From contig CALWJY010000001.1 of the NCBI GenBank assembly GCA_944381135.1, forward strand, positions 26,595 through 90,594: a stretch of 64,000 bases of DNA, read 5' to 3'. The notes below the pieces were generated by a model. It worked only from the letters and a program-made list of their open reading frames with translations. It was not told the DNA's origin and did no database searches. This document shows, piece after piece, positions 4,809 through 15,347 of the stretch; position 1 is the stretch's first letter, and each line of letters opens with the position of its first letter. The position numbers and the translations under genes are program-made. The stretch comes from an uncultured Clostridia bacterium (GTDB lineage Bacteria > Bacillota > Clostridia > Christensenellales > UBA1242).

Positions 4809-5996
4809 ATGTCAAAAAGAATTTCATACTTCACCAATCTAATCTATTTTGTTGTGCTTGTGGTTTTTGTTGTGGTCAGGGTTTGTTCTGCCTATGGTCT
4901 TTTTTCTTTTATGGGTGAATATGGCTCATACATCATGAGTTTCATCACGCAAGTTGGAATCATTTTCTTGCTTCCGCTTGTGCTTTTCAAAATGCTGAAC
5001 AAATTTTCTTTCAGAACAACTTTCAATTTCTATGGTTTCAAAAAAGTTTCCTACAAAACCGTGCTTGTTGCAATTGTGCTTGGGGCGGTGGTGTTTCTCT
5101 TGAATGTCTATGTTTCAAGTTTTTTCAACTCCATGATTCAACTTTTCGGCTACACACCATCGTCTTCCTCGTCCTCGCTTCCTGCAACTTGGTGGGTGTT
5201 TGTGCTTAACCTCATTACCACCGCCATTTTGCCTGCAATTTGCGAGGAAACTTTGCACAGAGGCATGCTTTTGAAAGGCAATTCTCAAATGGGCATAAAG
5301 AAAAGCATCATCATTTCGGGCTTTCTGTTTGGACTTCTGCACCTGAACATAGAGCAATTTTTCTATGCCACCATCATTGGTTTGTTTTTGGGATATCTTT
5401 GCTGGGGTTGCAACTCAATCTATCCTTGCATAATTGTGCATTTCATGAACAACGCAATCAGTGTTTTTCTCTCGTTTGCGCAGGCAAAGGGATGGGCAAT
5501 TGGAAACATTCTGAACACTTTTTCAAACTTTGTTCTTCAAAGTGGAGCAATTGGTTTTTTGATTTTTGTGCTTGTTTTGGTGCTTTTTGTGGTGATTGCA
5601 ATTGAACTGACGCGCTTTTTGATTAAAGATTCTTTCAACTACAACTTCGGCAGGCGTCAAAAAGAACTTGCCAACATGGCAATCAGAGACAGTTTTTTCA
5701 GACAAATTGACGACATCAAAAACGACCAACAAGTTGAAAATTCCATCTATTCGACAGATAAAAACATAATTTACATCGATTTTAAAGATTTCTTGGAATT
5801 TGTCAACAAGAATTTTGAAAATCTTAAGAAAGAGGTTGGTGGTGCAGAGAACAAATTTGCTGGTAAGAATGAAAAAATTTCGAAGCAAAAACCAATTGAG
5901 AATGTGGACCTTAAAATCAAAATTTTGATGTGGGGGTCGATTGCGCTTTCGGCGGTGGTCACATTTATGACTTTCATTTGGGGGCTGCTGCGATGA
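4809..5996 (+). CDS. Second CPBP family intramembrane protease-like protein
   Basis: The 395-residue protein is a paralogue of its upstream neighbour. It has about eight membrane helices, the motif EETLHRG near residue 148, LLHLN near residue 178 and VHFMNN near residue 217. A cytoplasmic region of about 100 residues follows (about 275-370), then a final hydrophobic segment. Putative catalytic Glu and His residues are present, so it may be active. AAGGA lies about 7 nt before the ATG. The stop overlaps the rlmH start (ATGA), so the two are translationally coupled. Confidence 0.85.
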   Translation: MSKRISYFTNLIYFVVLVVFVVVRVCSAYGLFSFMGEYGSYIMSFITQVGIIFLLPLVLFKMLNKFSFRTTFNFYGFKKVSYKTVLVAIVLGAVVFLLNVYVSSFFNSMIQLFGYTPSSSSSSLPATWWVFVLNLITTAILPAICEETLHRGMLLKGNSQMGIKKSIIISGFLFGLLHLNIEQFFYATIIGLFLGYLCWGCNSIYPCIIVHFMNNAISVFLSFAQAKGWAIGNILNTFSNFVLQSGAIGFLIFVLVLVLFVVIAIELTRFLIKDSFNYNFGRRQKELANMAIRDSFFRQIDDIKNDQQVENSIYSTDKNIIYIDFKDFLEFVNKNFENLKKEVGGAENKFAGKNEKISKQKPIENVDLKIKILMWGSIALSAVVTFMTFIWGLLR

Positions 5997-6451
5997 TGAC
6001 AATAAATTTGATTTGTGTTGGAAATTTAAAAGAAAAGTTTTCGCGTGAGGAGCAGGCGGAATATCTCAAAAGATTGTCTGCTTTTTGCAAGGTGAATGTT
6101 GTTGAAATTAAAGAACAAAACCAACTTCAACAGCCGGCATTGATTGTTGAAAAAGAGAGTGAGGAAATTTTGTCTCATCTTTCGGGATACATAATTCTTT
6201 GTGACATTGAGGCAAAGGAGAGTTCAAGCCCTGCATTTGCAAAACACTTGCAAGACCTTATGCAAACAACATCCACAATTTCTTTTGTTGTGGGTGGCAG
6301 TTATGGCGTAAGTGAAAAGGTGAGGAAAAAGTGCAATGAAAGAATGTCGTTTTCACCAATGACTTTTCCACACAATCTCTTCCGCATTATGCTTTTGGAA
6401 CAAGTCTATCGCGCTTTCACCATTATCAATGGAAAAACATATCATAAATAG
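5993..6451 (+). CDS. rlmH: 23S rRNA pseudouridine-1915 N3-methyltransferase RlmH
   Basis: The 152-residue SPOUT methyltransferase has the knot motifs GGSYGVSEKV (about residue 100) and FPHNLFRIMLLEQVYRAF near the C-terminus. RlmH methylates pseudouridine 1915 in helix 69 of 23S rRNA. The start is ATG 5993, overlapping the previous stop; ATG 5996 is equally possible. The stop codon TAG (6449-6451) directly touches the structured repeat that begins at 6451. Confidence 0.93.
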   Translation: MMTINLICVGNLKEKFSREEQAEYLKRLSAFCKVNVVEIKEQNQLQQPALIVEKESEEILSHLSGYIILCDIEAKESSSPAFAKHLQDLMQTTSTISFVVGGSYGVSEKVRKKCNERMSFSPMTFPHNLFRIMLLEQVYRAFTIINGKTYHK

Positions 6452-6585
6452 GCGAAAAAACTGCGCTGAGGGCTCACATTTGCCACCTTGTGTCAAATGT
6501 ATCACTTGTACGCTTGTTTTTTCGCCCTCCGCACCAAACGAAAATCTCGCTTACGCTCGATTTTGTGCGGACTCTCTTGCGAAGT
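6451..6585. repeat. Two-hairpin structured repeat, copy 1
   Basis: Hairpin A has an 11-bp perfect outer stem (GGCGAAAAAAC 6451-6461 with GTTTTTTCGCC 6516-6526) and an inner stem ACATTTG/CAAATGT (6476-6482/6494-6500). Hairpin B has CCGCAC/GTGCGG (6529-6534/6565-6570) and AAAATC/GATTTT (6541-6546/6559-6564). A tail ACTCTCTTGCGAAG follows. Copy 2 at 14716-14850 has the same plan with different stem bases. Confidence 0.8.
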
Positions 6586-6613
6586 GGGGCGCTGTGGGCA
6601 AAAAGTGGAATGT

Positions 6614-6740
6614 GAGTTTGAAACTGCGCTGATGGCTCTCATTTCCAAAATTGTCACTCTGAGGCGTCCATGACGCTTTTTGTTAATAGTCATTTCAATT
6701 CATATTTTATCACTCTGAGCGAAGCCCGTTGGGTCTCGGC
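6614..6740. repeat. Fragment of the two-hairpin repeat plus a CTGAGC-type element
   Basis: Around 6618-6640 the sequence GAAACTGCGCTGATGGCTC repeats the start of hairpin A of copy 1 but lacks its partner arm. At 6709-6740 there is an isolated TCACTCTGAGCGAAG...GGGTCTCGG half element like those at 15214 and 56591. Both look like decayed copies. Confidence 0.6.
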
Positions 6741-6822
6741 AACAATAAACAATGTTGATTTGAAAATTAAATAAATAAAAGCTGTCATTGACGGAGATTT
6801 TTTGAAAATTGGCGCAAAATGC

Positions 6823-6851
6823 TTGATTTTTTCTGCGCGGTGTGATATGAT
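6823..6851 (+). promoter_or_regulatory. rpsB promoter
   Basis: TTGATT (6823-6828), a 17-bp spacer and an extended -10, TG-A-TATGAT (TATGAT 6846-6851). The predicted start near 6858 leaves a leader of about 205 nt before rpsB. Confidence 0.65.
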
Positions 6852-6857
6852 GAGGAA

Positions 6858-7063
6858 GTCATTGAAGACAAATTAACACTCAAAGCGTATTTGAAAATCT
6901 GTTGCCTGAACGCATTTGGTCTTTGGTTTGTTTGAATTTTCTTTCGAATTTGACCATTTGCAAAAGTGCTTGTGGACTTTGATGGGCTGTCCTGTGGCAC
7001 TTGGGTGGGTTTTTGAAAATTGAAACTTTGGGGAAGACAAAAAACAAGGAGGTATGAAAAATT
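6858..7063 (+). promoter_or_regulatory. Structured rpsB 5' leader, candidate ribosomal-protein autoregulatory element
   Basis: The long untranslated leader contains a hairpin near 6964-7002, with AAGTGC paired to GCACTT and further GTGG/CC pairing inside. It ends with AAGGAGG before the rpsB start. Long structured leaders before rpsB are common for S2 feedback control, but I cannot match this one to a described class. Confidence 0.35.
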
Positions 7064-7978
7064 ATGTCAGTTATTTCAATGAAACAACTTTTGGAGGCTG
7101 GTGTTCACTTTGGTCACCAAACAAGAAAATGGAACCCAAAGATGAAAAAATACATTTTCACCGCAAGAAATGATATTCACATCATCAACCTCGAACTTAC
7201 TTCAGAACAAGTGGACAAGGCTTATACATTTGTTCGTGACATTGTTGCAAGCGGAAAAAGTGTGCTTTTTGTTGGCACAAAGAAACAGGCTCAAGAGGCT
7301 GTTAAGGAAGAAGCAGAAAGATGTGGAATGTTCTATGTCAACACTCGTTGGCTTGGCGGAACTCTCACAAACTTCAAAACAATCAGAAACAGAATTGAGA
7401 GACTCAACAAACTTAATCAAATGGAAAAGGTTGGAGAATTTGACCTTTTGCCTAAAAAAGAAGTTGCTCTTTTGAAACAAGAAAGAGACAAACTTGAAAA
7501 GAACCTTGGCGGAATTAAGGATATGAGAGATTTGCCAGGCGTTATCTTTGTTGTTGACCCATCAAACGAAAAGATTTGCGTTCATGAAGCAAAAATTTTG
7601 AAAATTCCTGTTGTTAGCCTTGTTGACACAAACTGCGACCCAAGCGATGTGACAGTTGTCATTCCAGGAAATGATGATGCCATCCGTTCTGTCAAATTGA
7701 TTGCAAGTGCAATTGCAGATGCAGTCATTGAGGCAAGAGAAGGCGTTTCCATGAAGAAAGAGGAAGAAGAGGCTCCAGCAGAAGAAAATGTTGACCTTGA
7801 AGCACTTTTGGAACAAGCAAAACCAAGTGTTGAGCAAGCAGAAGCAGGCGAGGAAGAAAAGAAAGCAGCAAAGAAGTCAAGAAAGAAACCTGCCGTGAAA
7901 AAAGAAACAAAGAAAGACGAAAAGTCTGAAGAAAAAGTTGAAGAGAAATCTGAAACCGAAACAAAAACTGAAGAATGA
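7064..7978 (+). CDS. rpsB: Small ribosomal subunit protein S2
   Basis: The start [19 protein letters not shown] is diagnostic of S2, followed by the [16 protein letters not shown] block and [13 protein letters not shown]. At 304 residues it is longer than the usual 230-260. The excess is a C-terminal tail of about 75 residues, nearly all Glu, Lys and Ala (from about residue 228), unlikely to be folded. The ribosome binding site is AAGGAGG, 11 nt upstream. It forms a pair with tsf, 239 bp downstream; no terminator stands between them. Confidence 0.97.
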
Positions 7979-8217
7979 TGATTTTTGTGTCTTAATTTAA
8001 AATCTTAACTTTAAAAATTTCGATTTCTTTAAATCGTCAAAAATTACCAAAAATTGACAGTTTTTCAGATTTCGCTTAAATGCTGAGTTAAAATCTGGAA
8101 ATTTTACATCAAGTGAAGTTGAAAAGCCCAAAATTTAAGAAATAAAAAATAATACATGAAAAAAACACATCTTCAAAATTAATGAGATTGAAAAAGAAAG
8201 AAAAGGAGAATTTGATT

Positions 8218-8871
8218 ATGAGTTTTACAGCACAGGATGTCGCAAAACTTCGCGCTCAAACAGGCGTTGGAATGATGGAATGCAAAAAGGCGCTCACAGA
8301 TGCAAATGGAGATTTTGAAAAGGCAATTGTCCTCTTGAGAGAAAGAGGGCTTAAGGCTGTTGACAAAAAGCAAGGAAGAATTGCCTCTGAAGGTTTGGTT
8401 GCTTCCTACATCCACATGGGTGGAAGAATTGGTGTTTTGGTGGAAGTTAACTGCGAAACAGACTTCGTTGCAAAAAGCGAAGATTTTCAAACTTTGGTTA
8501 AGGATATTGCAATGCACATTGCTGCAGCAAATCCAAAATATGTTTCTGAAAGTGATGTTGACCCTGCAGAACTTGAACAAGAGAAAGAAATTTTGCGTGT
8601 TCAAGCAACAAACGAGGGCAAACCTGCAAACATCATTGAAAAGATGATTGAAGGCAGAATTAAGAAATTCTATGAGGATGTTTGCCTTTTGAATCAACAC
8701 TTTGTCAAGAATCCTGATTTGACAATCAAAGACCTTTTGACAGAAGCAACACTCAAAATTGGCGAAAAAATTGCCATCCGCAGATTTGTTAGATATGAAC
8801 TTGGCGAAGGTTTGGAAAAGAGAAACGACAACCTTGCTGAAGAAGTTGCAAAACAAATGGCAGGAAAATGA
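8218..8871 (+). CDS. tsf: Translation elongation factor Ts
   Basis: The 217-residue product has the UBA-like N-terminal domain ([22 protein letters not shown]) and the core signature VNCETDFVA near residue 77. EF-Ts is the nucleotide-exchange factor of EF-Tu. It is of the shorter bacterial type. ATG 8218 is used because a GGAG site lies 9 nt upstream; an in-frame extension to 8182 would include that site. A strong terminator follows at 8968. Confidence 0.96.
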
Positions 8872-8967
8872 GATTTCATGCTTTTGCAAAAGAACTTGAA
8901 AATTGATGATTTGTTTTGATGCGTCAAGAAATTGAAACAAACTTCAAAAAACAATTAAAATTTGAAT

Positions 8968-8993
8968 TAAACGGCAAATTTGCCGTTTTTTCT
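8968..8993 (+). terminator. Rho-independent terminator after tsf
   Basis: AAACGGCAAA pairs with TTTGCCGTTT and runs into a T stretch. It ends the rpsB-tsf unit. Confidence 0.85.
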
Positions 8994-9005
8994 TTGTTTA
9001 AATAT

Positions 9006-9035
9006 TTGCAAAATGGGTGCTTGGTGTGATAAACT
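9006..9035 (+). promoter_or_regulatory. frr promoter
   Basis: TTGCAA (9006-9011), an 18-bp spacer and an extended -10, TG-A-TAAACT (TAAACT 9030-9035). The leader to frr is about 145 nt. This promoter makes frr and the lipid genes a unit separate from rpsB-tsf. Confidence 0.5.
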
Positions 9036-9187
9036 AAGAAAGTTAGAGCAACAGATTGTTTTTATTTTGAGGTGGAAAAGAGAAGCAAACAGTTAAGGTT
9101 TGTCAAATTTGCATGAAATTAAAATGAAAACAAATGCTTGAACTTTAAAATTTAAACGGGTCACTGACCCAAAAGGAGAAAATTTTT

Positions 9188-9754
9188 ATGGATGAAATGG
9201 TGGCGGAAATTTTTGAAAATTTGAAACAAGATTTGGAAAAAGCATATTCTCACCAACAGAATGAATATCTTGTTATAAGGGCGGGCAGAGCCAACCCACA
9301 CATCTTGGACAAGGTTATGGTGGAATATTATGGTGTGCCAACTCCAATTGTGCAAATGGGCACAATCACGGTTTCAGAAGCGCGCATTTTGAACATCAAT
9401 GTTTGGGACGCATCACAAATCAAGAATGTTGAAAAAGCAATTTCGCAATCTGACATTGGAATCACTCCAACCGATGATGGAAAAACAATCAGACTTGTTT
9501 TCCCAATGTTGACGGAAGAGCGCAGAAAAGAAATTGTCAAAAATGTCAAAAAGATTTGCGAGGAAACCAAAATTGCCATGAGGAATGCACGCCGTGACGC
9601 ACTTGACATGCTGAAAGACCTCAAAAAAGACAGTGCAATTTCTGAAGATGAATTTTCGTCTTACGAGAAAGAGGTTCAAAAGCAAATTGACAAATACACT
9701 GACATGGCTGAGAAACAGGCAGAAGACAAAGAAAAAGAGGTTATGACCGTTTGA
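9188..9754 (+). CDS. frr: Ribosome recycling factor
   Basis: The 188-residue product has RAGRANPHILDKVMVEYYG and the PxLTEERRKE block typical of RRF, and a long C-terminal helix. With EF-G it splits post-termination ribosomes. The ATG has AAAAGGAG upstream. In most Firmicutes pyrH lies between tsf and frr; it is absent here. Confidence 0.97.
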   Translation: MDEMVAEIFENLKQDLEKAYSHQQNEYLVIRAGRANPHILDKVMVEYYGVPTPIVQMGTITVSEARILNINVWDASQIKNVEKAISQSDIGITPTDDGKTIRLVFPMLTEERRKEIVKNVKKICEETKIAMRNARRDALDMLKDLKKDSAISEDEFSSYEKEVQKQIDKYTDMAEKQAEDKEKEVMTV

Positions 9755-9915
9755 TTTTTGGTTTTAATTGATTTTAGGTCAAAATTCAAAAAACGCAAAA
9801 TGTCCGCTTTGTTGTGCGTTTTGTTAATGTTTTCCTTTGTTCTTGCCATTTCAAACTTAAAAACAGCCAAAGAAGCAACCAACAAAAGACCGATATTGAA
9901 ATTTTTTAGGTGGAT

Positions 9916-10626
9916 ATGTTCAGAAAAAAGAAAAAAAACTTAATAAAATTGCCAACTCACATTGCTTTCATCATGGATGGAAATCGCAGGTGGGCGGTTG
10001 CGCGTGGGCTTAACAAGATGATTGGGCACAAACAAGGCGCAATTGCAATGAAAAACATCATTGAAACGCTCATGAAAATTAAAGAAATCAAATATGCTTC
10101 ATTTTTTGCTTTTTCAACAGAAAATTGGAACAGAGACAGGCGAGAGATTGACTATTTGTTTGATTTGATTTATAATTTTGTTGAAGACAATGAGGAAAAA
10201 TATAAAAAAGAAAATGTGAAAGTTGTTGTCATGGGTGACCTTTCGCGTTTTCCACAGAAATTGCAAGACATTTGCGTTCGTGCCATGAAAGAAACTGAAA
10301 ACAACACCGGACTTGTTGTCAATTTGGCAATGAACTATGGCGGAAGAGACGACATTGTGCACGCGGTCAACAAATTGATTGAAAGCGGTGAAAAGAAAGT
10401 GACAATTGAAAATTTGCAGAAAAATTTATATTCTTTCCCGGCTCCAGACATAGACCTTTTGATTCGAACCAGCGGAGAGATGAGAATTTCAAATTTTATG
10501 CTTTTTCAAATGGCATACAGCGAACTTTATTTCACAAAAACTTTCTGGCCAGATTTTGATGAAAAATGTCTGCAGAAAGCACTTGTTGAATTTTCAAAAC
10601 GAAACAGAAGATTTGGAGGAACATGA
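9916..10626 (+). CDS. uppS: Isoprenyl (undecaprenyl) diphosphate synthase
   Basis: The 236-residue cis-prenyltransferase has the catalytic motif MDGNRRWA near residue 20, FSTENW near residue 65 and the RTSGEMRISNF / AYSEL region near residue 190. It makes the C55 carrier for wall synthesis from FPP and IPP. ATG 9916 is preferred over GTG 9910 because AGG precedes it at 5 nt. The stop overlaps the cdsA start (ATGA), showing coupling. Confidence 0.96.
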   Translation: MFRKKKKNLIKLPTHIAFIMDGNRRWAVARGLNKMIGHKQGAIAMKNIIETLMKIKEIKYASFFAFSTENWNRDRREIDYLFDLIYNFVEDNEEKYKKENVKVVVMGDLSRFPQKLQDICVRAMKETENNTGLVVNLAMNYGGRDDIVHAVNKLIESGEKKVTIENLQKNLYSFPAPDIDLLIRTSGEMRISNFMLFQMAYSELYFTKTFWPDFDEKCLQKALVEFSKRNRRFGGT

Positions 10627-11588
10627 TGAAAAACAGAATCTACACATCCATTGCAATTGTCATCACATTGGTGCTTTTGTTTGTGCTTAAAATTTATGTG
10701 AGCGACTATTTCTTTGATGCGTTCTTTGCAATCATTGCGTGCATTGCAGCGTTTGAAATGTCGAGACTTTTGACAAAAATTGGAAAATATAACTTTCAAC
10801 TTGTTGCAATTGCATTTCCAACGCTGCTTTTGGTTGTCAATTTGGTGGGAGTGCATTTCACCACTGTGACGGGTGACATTTTTGTGTTTCTTTACACAAT
10901 TTTGGCTGACATTGGTGTGGCAATTTTGATGTTTTTGGGTGTGTTTTTGTTTGGACTTTGTCGAAAAAAGAAAACTTTGCATGAAATTGGCGTCAGAAAC
11001 CTTACAAACATTTCTGTTGCTGAATTTTCAATCAAAAAGGCGCTGAACACTGCAATCACTTTCATCTATCCAGCATTTTTGTTCTTGTTTTTCAATTTTC
11101 TCAACCACTTCAACATTATGCCACTTGGAAAACTGACGGACATTGGTTCAAATGTCAGCGTTTTTGTGCTCATCACAGCGCTCATCATTCCGATGATTAC
11201 TGACACTTTTGCAATGCTGACAGGTTCTTTGATTGGTGGCAAAAAATTGTGTCCAAAAATCAGTCCGGGAAAGACAATTTCGGGTTCAATTGGCGGTGTG
11301 CTTTGGTGCGTGCTTTTTGGCGCGTGTGTGTATTTGATTTTCGGTTGCATTGAAAGTTTTGCTCCATTCATGGAAGTTTTTCCAATTTGGGCATATCTCA
11401 TCATTGTTTTCATTGGCTCTTGCGTGGCACAGGGCGGAGACCTTTTTGAATCGGTCATCAAACGCCGTGCGGGTGTTTCTGACAGCGGAAAAATTTTGCC
11501 AGGACATGGCGGAATGCTTGACAGGATTGATTCCTACATCTTTATGTCGCCATACATTTTGCTTGCGTTCTGGATTTTCACTCTTTGA
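10623..11588 (+). CDS. cdsA: Phosphatidate cytidylyltransferase
   Basis: The 321-residue protein has about eight membrane helices and ends with the CdsA signature SVIKRRAGVSDSGK...LPGHGGMLDRID. It makes CDP-diacylglycerol from phosphatidic acid and CTP. The usual K-D of the signature (KR....KD) reads S-D here (GVSDSGK), a mild departure. The start at 10623 has GGAGGA upstream and overlaps uppS. No dxr follows, unlike the common Firmicutes order cdsA-dxr-rseP. Confidence 0.94.
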   Translation: MMKNRIYTSIAIVITLVLLFVLKIYVSDYFFDAFFAIIACIAAFEMSRLLTKIGKYNFQLVAIAFPTLLLVVNLVGVHFTTVTGDIFVFLYTILADIGVAILMFLGVFLFGLCRKKKTLHEIGVRNLTNISVAEFSIKKALNTAITFIYPAFLFLFFNFLNHFNIMPLGKLTDIGSNVSVFVLITALIIPMITDTFAMLTGSLIGGKKLCPKISPGKTISGSIGGVLWCVLFGACVYLIFGCIESFAPFMEVFPIWAYLIIVFIGSCVAQGGDLFESVIKRRAGVSDSGKILPGHGGMLDRIDSYIFMSPYILLAFWIFTL

Positions 11589-11836
11589 TGAATTTTGTCT
11601 CAAATTGCGGGTTTGACAAATTTGATTTGCTTTGATTTGCCCTTTCGTTATATTTGCGTCATAAATGCTGAAAATGTGGAAACTCTAAGAAAAGGCGTCT
11701 GAATTTGAAAATGAATTCCTTAAAAATTTTTTGATTTGAATTCTTTTTGAATTTAAAATCTTTGAAATTGGAATCGAAAAATCAAATCGAAAAAATGAAA
11801 CGAAAGACCAACACAAGTGTTTAAAAGGTTTTTGTT

Positions 11837-12967
11837 ATGATTGTTGTTTACATTTTGCTTGCCATAGTCATTCTGCTTTTCATGGTGCTTATCCATGAAT
11901 TTGGACACTATGTTGCAGGCAAAATTTTGAAGTTTAAAATCACAGAATTTTCTGTTGGTTTTGGCTTTCCAATCTTCACGCGAACGAGCAAGAAAACGGG
12001 CGAAAAATTTTCGCTCAGAATTTTTCCATTGGGTGGATATTGCTCTTTTGAAGGCGAGGACGACGAGGGAGAATCTTCTTCTCCAACAGCATTCAACAAT
12101 CAAAAGCCTTGGAAAAGAATCATTGTGTTTTTGGCGGGCGTGACAGCAAACTTTTTGACAGCCATAATTTTTTCTTGGATTTTGCTTTGCACAATTGGAT
12201 ATGATGTTCCGCAAATTGCGCGTTTCAATCAAGTCTACACAAATCCATATCAAGTTGGAGATGTCATCACTCACATTGAGGGACAAAAAATTGATTTTGC
12301 ATTTGGCGGAAATTTTGTTGACCTTGTCACAAGTGAAAAACAGACGGCTTTGGCGCAGTATAGAGAGCAGTATGAGGCAAATGGCAACAGTCTTGAGGGC
12401 GTTGAGGCTTCCTATACATTTGAAATGACTGTCAAGCGTGACGGAGAACTTCAAAATTTGACAATCACAATCTATCCTGTTGTTGAAGTCAACAGCACGA
12501 ATGGTGAAGAATATGTAAATGTCTATACAGGGCTTGAAAGCGCGGAGGGTGAAGACCCTTGCACAGTTGCATATGTCTATGACGCATGGTCGGGCTTTTG
12601 TCGTTCGTTTGAAATGGCATTTGGCTTTGCTTGGGTGGTTCTGAAGAGCCTTTGGATGCTCATTACATTTCAAATTCCAATCACGGAAATGGGCGGAACA
12701 ATTGCCACAATTTCCACAATTGCAACCATGGCGTCACAAAGCATGTCCTACATTTTGGTTTTCATCCCGCTGATTGCGGCGAATTTGGCGGTGTTTAATG
12801 TCTTGCCGTTTCCGGCGCTGGACGGCTCGCATGTGCTTTTCACAATCATAGAGTGGATTCGAGGCAAGCCAATTAATCGAAAAGTTGAGAGCATGATTCA
12901 CTTTGTCGGGCTTTGCATTTTGTTTGGTTTTGTGATTATTGTGGACATATTGCATTTTGTCCTATGA
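11837..12967 (+). CDS. rseP: Site-2 protease, RseP/RasP family zinc metalloprotease
   Basis: The 376-residue membrane protease has HEFGH near residue 22 (zinc ligands and catalytic Glu), a PDZ-like middle region (about 125-215) and the second metal motif NVLPFPALDGSH near residue 320. The family cleaves membrane-bound anti-sigma factors and signal-peptide remnants. It follows cdsA after 248 bp and is closed by the terminator at 12992. Confidence 0.94.
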   Translation: MIVVYILLAIVILLFMVLIHEFGHYVAGKILKFKITEFSVGFGFPIFTRTSKKTGEKFSLRIFPLGGYCSFEGEDDEGESSSPTAFNNQKPWKRIIVFLAGVTANFLTAIIFSWILLCTIGYDVPQIARFNQVYTNPYQVGDVITHIEGQKIDFAFGGNFVDLVTSEKQTALAQYREQYEANGNSLEGVEASYTFEMTVKRDGELQNLTITIYPVVEVNSTNGEEYVNVYTGLESAEGEDPCTVAYVYDAWSGFCRSFEMAFGFAWVVLKSLWMLITFQIPITEMGGTIATISTIATMASQSMSYILVFIPLIAANLAVFNVLPFPALDGSHVLFTIIEWIRGKPINRKVESMIHFVGLCILFGFVIIVDILHFVL

Positions 12968-12991
12968 TTTTTGAATGATGATATGAATAAG

Positions 12992-13018
12992 GAACGGCGA
13001 AATGACCGTTCTTTTTTT
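12992..13018 (+). terminator. Rho-independent terminator after rseP
   Basis: GAACGG (12992-12997) pairs with CCGTTC (13006-13011) and is followed by seven T residues. Confidence 0.8.
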
Positions 13019-13150
13019 AATAAAACTTTTTTATGTAAATTTTCAAAGTTTACAAGAGAGGATGATGTCGTGTCAAGTTTGTTTTTGGTTTGCTTTCTTT
13101 TCTGAGAAGTGATTGTTGTTCTGTGCATTTAAAATTAATTTCATATGTGC

Positions 13151-13179
13151 TTGACAAATTTTCAAGTTTGACATAAAAT
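13151..13179 (+). promoter_or_regulatory. Promoter of the polC-like gene, predicted leaderless
   Basis: A consensus TTGACA (13151-13156), a 17-bp spacer and TAAAAT (13174-13179). The ATG is at 13186, 6 nt after the -10, with no Shine-Dalgarno sequence. This is one of the clearest leaderless candidates in the window. Confidence 0.75.
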
Positions 13180-13185
13180 TGTTGT

Positions 13186-14718
13186 ATGAATTTCCAGCAA
13201 GAGTTTGCCACAAAGTTTGGCGAAAAATATCCAACACTTCAACTTAAAAGCGTTGCGGTCAAGAAAAGCACAGGGGCGTTTTTCATCACTTTTTTATATC
13301 CATCCACCGACACAGAACTTTCTGATGAGCAAAAAAGCGAAATCACGCAGTGGATTTGCCAATTTTTGAAACTTGAAAATCTGCAAGTCAGAGTCAAGTT
13401 TATGCGTGTTTTTGTGGAAGAAAGGCTGATTATGAAGTCGGTTTTGTCTTTCTTTGAAAACAAATATAAATTGATTTCAACCTATCTTTCTGAGAAAAGT
13501 TTTCAAATCAAAATCACACCAATTGATGTTCAGATTGGAGTTGAGGTGAGTTCGAGACTTTTTAATTTCTTCGTGGAGCACAACATTTCGGCAGAACTTT
13601 CAAAACATCTTAAAGACAACTTTTTGGTGGATTTTGTTGTGGAACTTCATGAAAATGCCAACTTGGTTGATGAAGTGGACATCGACAATGTCCAAATGAA
13701 AACGAAATATAAAATTGTTCACAGATATAAAGTTGACATCGTGAAAGAGATTGTAGGCAAAGACATCAATCCGACACCAGAATTTATTTCTTTCATTAAA
13801 CAGCCAAAAAATTCGGTTATCGTTGCAGGCTTTGTTGACAAACTTGAACGTCGAGATTTCATCATCAAAAAAGGCAAACGCGAAGGTCAACAGAAAGCAT
13901 ATTTCAGTTTCAAAATTGATGACGGAAAAGGCAAAATGGACTGCATTTTCTTCTGTGCAAAAAAATATGAAAAAGTGATGGACTCTTTGGAAGACTGCAT
14001 GTTTTTGCTTTTGCGCGGGGATGTCAGACTGAACCAAATGGGCAAACTTTGCCTTTATGTTGATAAAATTGCTTTGGCAAGTCGAACGGAAGAGCCTCAA
14101 GAAATCATAAAACCACAGAAGAGTTATGATGGAAAAGTGGTTGAGGTTGAAAAACTGACCGCCATGGAACAAGACAGCATGTTTGAGCACAAAAACAAAT
14201 ATAACGCCAAAATTATGGGTAAAACAATTGTGGTGTTTGACATTGAAACGACAGGGCTTGACACAAATTCCGACCAAATCATCGAACTTGGTGCTGTGAA
14301 ATTGGAAAATGGAAACATTGTCGAAAAATTTTCCACTTTTGTCAAACCAACAATACGAATTCCGTTTGCTGTTGTTGAACTGACAGGAATCACGAATGAA
14401 ATGGTGGAAGATGCACCACCAATTGAATTTGTCATCAAAGATTTCTATGACTTCACGCGCGGATGTGTTTTGTGTGGACATAATGCAATTGAATTTGACA
14501 TCAAATTCATCAGGCGCGAGGGGGCAAATTTGGGACTTAATTTTGACAATGAAATCATTGACACCATGAATGAGGCTCGTGTTTCAAGGCTTAAAATTTC
14601 GCGTTTCAATTTGGCAACAGTTTTGCGAGCTTTGGGGTTGACAAACGAAGGGGCTCACCGTGCGTGGAACGATGCTTACGCAACTGCTCAGGTGCTTTTG
14701 AAACTAAACGAAGCTTGA
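13186..14718 (+). CDS. PolC-like 3'-5' exonuclease lacking PHP and polymerase domains
   Basis: The 510-residue product has an N-terminal region like that of PolC (about 1-205). An OB-fold resembling the PolC OB domain follows (about 210-300, NSVIVAGFVDKLERRDF...FKIDDGKGKMDCIFF), then a DEDDh exonuclease (about 345-510): FDIETTGLD, GHNAIEFDIKF and HRAWNDAYAT carry all expected acidic residues and the His. True PolC is about 1,430 residues, with the exonuclease inserted in a PHP domain and a polymerase core after it; neither is present. The locus, between rseP and rimP-nusA, is the normal polC site. It could be a reduced PolC or a specialised proofreading or repair nuclease. The stop overlaps a structured repeat. 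Confidence 0.85.
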   Translation: MNFQQEFATKFGEKYPTLQLKSVAVKKSTGAFFITFLYPSTDTELSDEQKSEITQWICQFLKLENLQVRVKFMRVFVEERLIMKSVLSFFENKYKLISTYLSEKSFQIKITPIDVQIGVEVSSRLFNFFVEHNISAELSKHLKDNFLVDFVVELHENANLVDEVDIDNVQMKTKYKIVHRYKVDIVKEIVGKDINPTPEFISFIKQPKNSVIVAGFVDKLERRDFIIKKGKREGQQKAYFSFKIDDGKGKMDCIFFCAKKYEKVMDSLEDCMFLLLRGDVRLNQMGKLCLYVDKIALASRTEEPQEIIKPQKSYDGKVVEVEKLTAMEQDSMFEHKNKYNAKIMGKTIVVFDIETTGLDTNSDQIIELGAVKLENGNIVEKFSTFVKPTIRIPFAVVELTGITNEMVEDAPPIEFVIKDFYDFTRGCVLCGHNAIEFDIKFIRREGANLGLNFDNEIIDTMNEARVSRLKISRFNLATVLRALGLTNEGAHRAWNDAYATAQVLLKLNEA

Positions 14719-14850
14719 CTCGAAAACTGCGCTGTTTGCTCATTTTTGGCATTTCATGCCAAAAAGCATCGCTCTGACGCTTGTTTTCGAGTCATCGCGC
14801 CAGACGAAAATCTCACTGACGTTGCGATTTTGCGCGACTCTCTTGCGAAG
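14716..14850. repeat. Two-hairpin structured repeat, copy 2
   Basis: Hairpin A has a 12-bp outer stem (TGACTCGAAAAC 14716-14727 with GTTTTCGAGTCA 14783-14794) and a 10-bp inner stem (14743-14752/14756-14765). Hairpin B has TCGCGC/GCGCGA (14795-14800/14832-14837) and AAAATC/GATTTT (14807-14812/14826-14831). The tail is CTCTCTTGCGAAG. The outer stems differ from copy 1 yet remain fully paired. The element starts in the stop codon of the polC-like gene. Confidence 0.85.
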
Positions 14851-14887
14851 AATGAGATTCTAAGAGAGATGGTGTTTTTTTAGAAAG

Positions 14888-14980
14888 TAGCACTGCCACA
14901 AAACCGCGCTGTTTGCTTATTTTTGCCATTTCATGCCAAAAAGTTTCGCCCTGACGCTTGTTTTCGGTGGCATTGCCACA
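14888..14980. repeat. Two-hairpin structured repeat, copy 3 (hairpin A only, decayed)
   Basis: GCCAC-AAAAC (14895-14904) pairs with GTTTT-CG-GTGGC (14960-14971) with a 2-nt bulge. The inner stem matches that of copy 2 except for one C-C mismatch. Hairpin B is missing. GTGGCATTGCCAC follows at 14967-14979. Confidence 0.65.
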
Positions 14981-15033
14981 ATTTAAAGAATGCAAATTAA
15001 AAGGGGTTCAAAAAAATTCTTAAATTTTTGGGA

Positions 15034-15172
15034 AAAGGAATGACCAAGCATTTTCCGAGTGCTTGCGAAAAGCAAGCCGAGTTTGAGCGCGGGTCATAAC
15101 GCGGTCGCGACTCTCCTATCGAAGTGGGAGATTCTAAGAAAAAGATGTGTGTTTTAAAAAGTGGCACTGCCA
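15034..15172. repeat. Further hairpin repeat with the same tail
   Basis: ATGACC (15040-15045) pairs with GGTCAT (15092-15097) around an inner hairpin GCTTGC-gaaaa-GCAAGC (15061-15077). The tail GCGACTCTCCTATCGAAG and the next 50 bp resemble the tail of copy 2, including GATTCTAAGA and an AGTGGCACTGCCAC palindrome. Confidence 0.55.
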
Positions 15173-15174
15173 CC

Positions 15175-15347
15175 ATCACTCTGAGCAAAGCCCGTTGTTT
15201 TGAACTTATATTTGTCACCCTGAGCGAAGTCGAAGGGTCTCATGGTGATTAAAAAGGAAAGAGATTCTTCGACACAGCCTGTCGGCTGGCTCAGAATGAC
15301 GAAGAAAATTGCCGAATGTCATTCTGACCGAAGTGGAAGAATCTCGG
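15175..15347. repeat. Cluster of GTCAYYCTGAGC elements (MITE-like)
   Basis: A full element spans 15214-15300: it begins GTCACCCTGAGCGAAG and ends GGCTCAGAATGAC, imperfect terminal inverted repeats, with internal GGGTCTC...GAGATTCTTCGACA also inverted. Half copies lie at 15175-15197 and 15318-15347. Related copies are at 6709 and 56591. No coding capacity. Confidence 0.7.

Follow-up and report, generated by a model that had tools for sequence, protein, structure and literature searches.

What does it mean when both sides of a stem change together and the stem stays paired? This question is raised by a 64,000-nucleotide stretch of DNA from an uncultured Clostridia bacterium (GenBank assembly GCA_944381135.1, contig CALWJY010000001.1, positions 26,595 to 90,594), hereafter the window, in which copies of a short two-hairpin repeat lie at the ends of protein genes. 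Ordinarily, two-sided changes are taken to prove that an RNA structure is conserved, and the initial annotation of this DNA left the choice between selection on structure and a mode of transposition or replication that depends on it. We argue herein that the strong covariation of this repeat probably has its cause in DNA copying. With modest confidence, we favor the explanation that the repeat is a non-autonomous mobile element at gene ends, akin to repetitive extragenic palindromes (REPs), that its stem arms are partly carried by the element, and that its palindrome arises, or is restored, through inverted copying of DNA.

The sequence agrees with the initial annotation in that copies 1 and 2 are two-hairpin repeats with the loop motifs ascribed to them and the tail motif CTCTCTTGCGAAG, and their outer stems indeed differ, with every arm pair being Watson-Crick (Table 1). 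Relative to dinucleotide shuffles, the folding z-scores are -2.6 for copy 1 and -3.3 for copy 2. A third copy, described as a further variant, holds up in part: its GCCAC/GTGGC stem exists (with one additional C), but rather than a full copy it is just hairpin 1 of another unit, which follows the first at a distance of 177 bp. Its 3' part, GTTTTCGGTGGCATTGCCAC, is found again at L002, where GTGGC is unmirrored (fetched loci are denoted L###, genomes G###, with G000 being the genome of the window).

The covariation noticed at the outset is real, and pairing with changed bases holds across the genus. Twenty-one copies were aligned on DNA alone, without fitting to structure, and the alignment yielded a consensus structure and a covariance model of the family, R1. 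In that alignment, 98.3% of 401 cells pair, versus 79.2% after shuffling, and two-sided changes occur in 16 of 20 pairs. None of 500 shuffles matched the observed value on any of five pairing measures, and only 36-55% of cells were paired when partners were slid out of register. At a cutoff of E<=0.001, R1 matched 42 of the 61 genus genomes searched, with 13 places in the window's own genome and 22 in G019. By blastn, copy 2 matched 14 of 61 genomes (its own and 13 others of the genus) and none of the 24 from other families. At E<=1e-5, R1 matched 20 of 297 genomes of the order, namely 12 of the genus, three of other genera of the family, and five, weakly, in three other families. In G089, of another family of the order (L285, L284, L286), the hairpin-2 module alone lies directly behind a tRNA CCA or repeated tRNA 3' ends; judging from such solo modules, it may be the older part of the element.

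A 21-base pattern retrieved 37 stretches in named genomes, of which 36 carry the title uncultured Clostridia bacterium and one that of Candidatus Caccovivens faecavium, and one exact pattern searched against viral contigs retrieved none. A phage or plasmid origin was also rejected, as blastn gave no match for copy 1 among plasmids or copy 2 among phages. A strict regular-expression search for cores found 13, while a looser version returned mostly noise and was discarded. Rfam gave no match in the window at the gathering score and none at E up to 1 for 6400-6760. The family is real and new; no description of it was found in the open-access literature searched, which does not by itself prove novelty. 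Units are ~125-185 nt long, too short for an enzyme gene. They also occur in arrays, where a unit spans (A)ACTGC to the tail (L104, L092, L080); given that a number of contigs break off at copies, part of these arrays may be assembly errors.

Seat at gene ends and source of the arms

From the fetched loci, 192 distinct copies were gathered, 189 of them usable, although a few may represent one place in two records. A same-strand tRNA (called by ARAGORN) precedes 44 of the 189 copies, and in 32 of these the innermost pair (the inner C) lies 10-11 nt past the tRNA end. The stem reaches the CCA of the tRNA in 28 of the 44, stops one base short in seven, and stops earlier in nine. The stop codon of an open reading frame (ORF) of at least 100 amino acids lies within ~30 nt of 37 copies, and within 11 nt of 32. 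At these gene ends, the element reads in the same direction as the gene; a strand check, made on tRNAs only, found an opposite-strand tRNA ending within 20 nt in 2 of 192 copies. By Rfam, the tmRNA of G030 and that of G036 end 1 and 3 nt before the stem, and the RNase P RNA of the window's own genome ends at the stem.

The arms of hairpin 1 form a near-perfect inverted repeat, with an outer stem that typically measures 9-14 bp at gene ends. Pairs 5-10 are formed in 94.7% of cases behind tRNAs, 93.2% behind ORFs, and 68.1% behind neither, compared to 55.8%, 48.2%, and 39.1%, respectively, with shuffled partners. Where relatives are free of the element, stems that start immediately after tRNA-Met or tRNA-Trp reach at most 2-7 bp, near the length in shuffled sequence, except for 13-bp stems behind the tRNA-Met of G019 and of G015. 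In the latter genome (L326), a different hairpin, GAGAAAAACTGAG..CTCAGTTTTTCTC, lies flush behind the CCA and is possibly a distant variant of the element. Three rows labeled as filled have weak stems (4 in G068, Met; 2 in G064, Trp; 5 in G002, Trp) and are decayed or divergent copies. Presence is patchy among the loci viewed: 3 of 30 for dnaK, 3 of 30 for rlmH, 1 of 30 for the exonuclease gene, and 5 of 30 for tRNA-Met.

Several loci contain arrays in which the last 15-20 nt of the tRNA, CCA included, is repeated downstream and followed by the element (L059, 1050-1760; L218, 1300-2500; L217, 1300-2300; L090, 1281-1560). At L059 and L090, an extra module, GGGCAGACCGC..GTTGCTCCCGGCTTTGGCTAAAAACAAGC..GCTTGTTTTTTACGCGTC, separates tRNA-Trp from the repeated tRNA end; this module is found behind tRNA-Trp in several genomes, even where the element is absent.

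Among the host ORFs are rlmH, the exonuclease/OB-fold gene, dnaK, secA, secY, rpsG, rplA, rpoA, rpoB, tsf, uvrC, an RNA methyltransferase, spoIVA, spoIVB, a Mur ligase, and MFS transporters; flush copies stand, for example, at the stop codons of rpoB, dnaK, secA, and rlmH. We assigned these names from Pfam hits and sequences (from sequence for dnaK and secA), and 2 of 20 ORFs in one scan set gave no hit. Downstream, the neighboring ORF is rpoC in three cases (L049, L253, L199; rpoB was identified by Pfam in two and by similarity in the third). Likewise, rpsG is followed by an EF-Tu/EF-G type GTPase, secY by adk, rpoA by rplQ, tsf by frr, and, in G019, dnaK by dnaJ. The repeat can enter the rpoB-rpoC gap, as well as tRNA and tmRNA gene ends, with the gene being kept. 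Directly behind the secA stop of G035 (L166, L270), GTGAATAGTGAATAATGAAGAG takes the place at which the sister genome carries the element.

Because copies separate usual operon neighbors, a strong terminator is unlikely. The possibility that the repeat is a mobile transcription terminator displacing native ones behind genes was lowered once the operon-internal copies had been identified (rpoB/rpoC, rpsG/EF-G type gene, secY/adk, rpoA/rplQ), and now appears improbable. Such a terminator would suit the A-rich 5' arms and T-rich 3' arms, and the terminator-like T-run hairpins seen by eye at the same place behind tRNA-Met in element-free relatives, but it would not need the mirrored bases beyond the T-run (GGCG, CTCG, ATTGAATAA). 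A scan found no terminator in copies 1 and 2, but its loop limit of 8 nt would miss such a shape. Any service to the host would more likely be that of a 3'-end RNA cap than that of a strong terminator, given the several copies that sit between genes usually found in one operon.

The arms appear to have two sources. On the evidence of sequence shared between two sister genomes, the outer stem is partly carried by the element: both arms, GAGTGAAAAC / GTTTTCACTC, are common to the copy at rlmH of G034 and that at a helix-turn-helix gene of G035 (assigned from its translation), and rlmH of G035 has the same GAGTGAAAAC, seen in the 5' arm only since the contig ends there. Hairpin 2 is nearly alike in the G034 and G035 copies carrying GAGTGAAAAC. 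In the window's own genome, arm bases complete the stop codons of rlmH (TA-G) and the exonuclease gene (T-GA). In G019, rlmH has the same 21 preceding bases and the stop TAA; the exonuclease gene of G074 reads gaagct-TAA, i.e. TAA after the same codons, and that of G062 ends in TAG. TAG is the stop in 14 of 32 ORF-end copies, versus 9 of 56 element-free loci of the rlmH and exonuclease genes, the latter being counted by eye.

Other 3' arms are inverted copies of the host gene end, up to 10 nt long (dnaK, rpoB, tRNA-Met). The end of dnaK, ACAATYGAATAA or similar, is found in carriers and non-carriers alike, and in two of the carriers, G019 and G034, the core is followed by its exact inverted copy over 10 coding nt, a C/T difference included. 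The same kind of dnaK end stands without a mirror in element-free G024, G003, and G068. As far as sequence comparison can tell, the host origin of the mirrored sequence is established at dnaK. In a four-gene tree, G019 groups with element-free G024, G003, and G068 (support 0.999), and G034/G035 group with element-free G001, G073, G031, and G013 (support 0.994); given these placements, two gains at dnaK are the simpler reading. The ends of rpoB are mirrored as GAATAG in G217 (gene by similarity) and GAGTAA in G001 (outermost pair G-T), with one mismatch in G020 and no mirror in G034. Behind tRNA-Met, element-free G063, G077, and G016 have RTGAAA, versus RTGAAAAAAC with a mirror in four carriers.

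At gene-end copies, host bases just upstream pair with an internal segment of the element at a fixed place. This would also be expected if a pre-existing 3' arm selected matching gene ends by base pairing, much like the IBS/EBS pairing of introns. We regard such target choice as highly improbable: none of nine other G019 copies compared (of 22 matches in that genome) has a dnaK-like arm, and nearly identical cores carry different arms, as in two G019 copies whose cores are 94% identical and whose arms, both perfectly paired, share 5 of 10 letters.

Changes in the stem pairs and their possible cause

In the explanation that we favor, a short two-hairpin element behaving as a repeat of the REP or bacterial interspersed mosaic element (BIME) type would settle at gene 3' ends. 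Fold-back copying across hairpin 1, by template switching during replication, at or after insertion, would make or remake the pairing and would write host sequence into the 3' arm. Were the pairing made in this way, both arms would change together. We infer this copying step from the mirrored sequences.

The principal alternative is a structured RNA, i.e. a 3'-untranslated or tRNA-trailer element selected for pairing and changed by classical compensatory substitutions. It would account for the very strong covariation in an alignment not fitted to structure, for the conserved unpaired motifs (CTGCGCT..GCTC, ATCGC..GACGCTTG, and CCAAACG), and for a seat behind highly expressed genes. In the arms, however, G-U combinations do not exceed A-C ones: in 161 copies with at least 7 of 10 pairs, there are 1474 Watson-Crick, 15 G-U, 17 A-C, and 104 other combinations. 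Uncompensated arm changes were found in four orthologous comparisons, namely the dnaK 3' arm and the Mur-ligase 5' arm of G034/G035 (the Mur-ligase case being inferred, as G035 is without hairpin 1), tRNA-Arg of G005/G026, and L074/L083. The mirroring of a coding end at dnaK also speaks against selected RNA, as do the units that lie behind other units.

Such later units, defined as those on the same strand within 400 nt behind another unit (n=35), have 0-6 Watson-Crick pairs in 29 cases, 7 in one, and 10-12 in five, and of the units in front of them, 26 of 35 have 9-14. If G-U pairs are also counted, three more later units reach 8 or 9 (L073, L076, L125). Four of the well-paired ones (L122, L218, L217, L249) lie behind a tRNA end, be it the original or a repeated one, and the fifth (L099) behind a repeated upstream module. 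The way in which the pairs change, later units included, fits block copying. Frequent repair of the palindrome after insertion was considered and finds no support in the unpaired later units. At L269 (1380-1800), compared with L198, G035 is without hairpin 1 but retains hairpin 2 for the most part, and an 8-bp duplication, TAAGCGAA, marks the junction.

The two-sided changes are overwhelming, yet they do not look like ordinary RNA covariation. Covariation alone is weak evidence for a selected RNA here, because arms change in blocks, some 3' arms are inverted copies of the host gene end, G-U is not in excess over A-C in the arms, some changes are uncompensated, and later units are mostly unpaired. 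For the same reasons, the second half of the initial proposal, transposition or replication that depends on structure, fits better than selection on structure, and we consider the structured RNA rather unlikely.

Nonetheless, several observations weigh against the explanation that we favor. Neither a tRNA nor an ORF stop lies on the 5' side of 108 of the 189 copies, a group that includes units behind other units and the tRNA-fragment, tmRNA, and RNase P cases. The stem is short or broken, as counted, at the rpoB copy L199 and at L078, L196, L247, and L252. In hairpin 2 (177 copies), there are 12 G-U versus 6 A-C combinations. Paired changes occur at distant orthologous sites (tRNA-Met in four species, and rpoB), and compensatory selection would also give these; together with the G-U excess in hairpin 2, they are what RNA selection retains on its side, and selection on the hairpin is also conceivable. 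Among the loci compared, no filled and empty pair with both element ends and a clean empty site was resolved. No mobility enzyme was found: Y1 transposase (PF01797) is present in 6 of 61 genus genomes and absent from G000, and a transposase of the REP-associated (RAYT) type was therefore rejected as the mover.

Finally, the unpaired later units imply that any repair of the palindrome is not quick, which leaves room for copying at insertion. Integration itself, and not later repair, might copy the final ~10 nt of the target gene in inverted form into the element (an inverted target duplication by fold-back synthesis), aimed at gene 3' ends by a machine recognizing RNA 3' ends or transcription; we give this version a low probability. 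As its strong covariation probably has a DNA-copying cause, the family provides a natural set of many copies on which methods for detecting covariation can be tested.

Features of the window

The coordinates of the copies in the window are collected in Table 1. Further repeats lie near them. A related hairpin, TGCGCTCAAACTCGGCTTGC..GCAAGCACTCGG..GCTTGGTC, with a CCTTTTCCCAAAAA module, is located at 15010-15115 and at L002, L003, and L004, and is recurrent in the own genome. A palindrome, GTGGCAnTGCCAC (first instance GTAGCACTGCCAC), recurs beside elements at 14887-14899, 14966-14979, and 15160-15173, as well as at L002 and L003. The repeats CACTCTGAGCGAAG / GATTCTTCG..GGCTCAGAATGAC, at 6709-6731 and 15206-15300, are found at more than 10 other places in the genome.

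Table 1. Parts of the repeat and adjoining stop codons in the window
Feature	Position	Strand	Remarks
Stop codon TAG of rlmH (SPOUT methyltransferase gene, 5930-6451)	6449-6451	+	its G opens the 5' arm of copy 1
Copy 1, hairpin 1	6451-6526	+	arms GGCGAAAAAAC (6451-6461) / GTTTTTTCGCC (6516-6526), 11 bp, all Watson-Crick; conserved core enclosed
Copy 1, hairpin 2	6529-6570	+	CCGCAC/GTGCGG, bulge CAAACG (6535-6540)
Copy 1, tail motif CTCTCTTGCGAAG	6572-6584	+	
Incomplete start of a further unit behind copy 1 (GAAACTGCGCTGATGGCTC...)	6620-6645	+	
Stop codon TGA of the exonuclease/OB-fold gene (13186-14718)	14716-14718	+	within the 5' arm of copy 2
Copy 2, hairpin 1	14716-14794	+	arms TGACTCGAAAAC (14716-14727) / GTTTTCGAGTCA (14783-14794), 12 bp, all Watson-Crick
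Copy 2, hairpin 2	14795-14837	+	TCGCGC/GCGCGA, bulge CAGACG
Copy 2, tail CTCTCTTGCGAAGAATGAGATTCTAAGAGAGA	14838-14869	+	
"Copy 3": a second unit's hairpin 1, followed by another module	14895-14971	+	R1 38.5 bits, model positions 11-72 only

Comparison with known systems

Among known systems, integron attC sites are spoken against by the hosts, which are housekeeping genes in their usual order. The tyrT repeats of Escherichia coli (RYT, rtT RNA) are tandem units of ~170-180 bp that lie downstream of a tRNA gene and contain copies of its 3' end. The tRNA-end arrays at L059, L218, L217, and L090 resemble them; here, however, related units are spread over many species and over the ends of many different tRNA and protein genes. 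With structured RNA families, the element shares two-sided changes, but it has no match in Rfam and the cause of its changes is ambiguous.

The bacterial miniature inverted-repeat transposable elements (MITEs) Correia/NEMIS, ERIC/IRU, RUP, RPE, and CIR, as described in the parts of PMC2229807 drawn on here, are 100-200 bp long and non-autonomous, with long stem-loops, and CIR consists of two arms and a linker. The present element resembles them in size range, stem-loops, and non-autonomy, and its plan recalls the two arms of CIR. Its inverted repeats, on the other hand, lie inside hairpin 1 rather than at both unit ends, the 3' arm being internal at L104, L092, and L080. Neither TA ends nor a target duplication has been shown for it, and tRNA ends do not figure in those MITE descriptions (PMC2229807).

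REPs with GTAG tags are extragenic palindromes that adjoin ORF 3' ends, at distances of <20 bp in two of the species studied there, and their ends often provide a TAG stop, according to the portion of PMC3733652 used here. Like REPs and BIMEs, the element is a short, many-copy palindrome at ORF 3' ends from which the stop codon may come. Unlike them, it has no GTAG/CGTC tag beside a 20-40-bp palindrome (arms begin with GGCG, GACT, GAGT, AAG, GTGG, and others), its own genome has no RAYT-type transposase, and it comprises two hairpins over 120 nt, sits behind tRNA and tmRNA CCA ends, and has arms that may hold host gene sequence. The closest parallel for the proposed copying step is template switching, in which hairpins are created or repaired in one event by reverse-complement copying, with multi-base compensatory changes (PMC8794818, in the part relied on here). 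Whereas that account concerns RNA genes, the copied arm in the present family can be the end of a protein-coding gene beside a mobile core.

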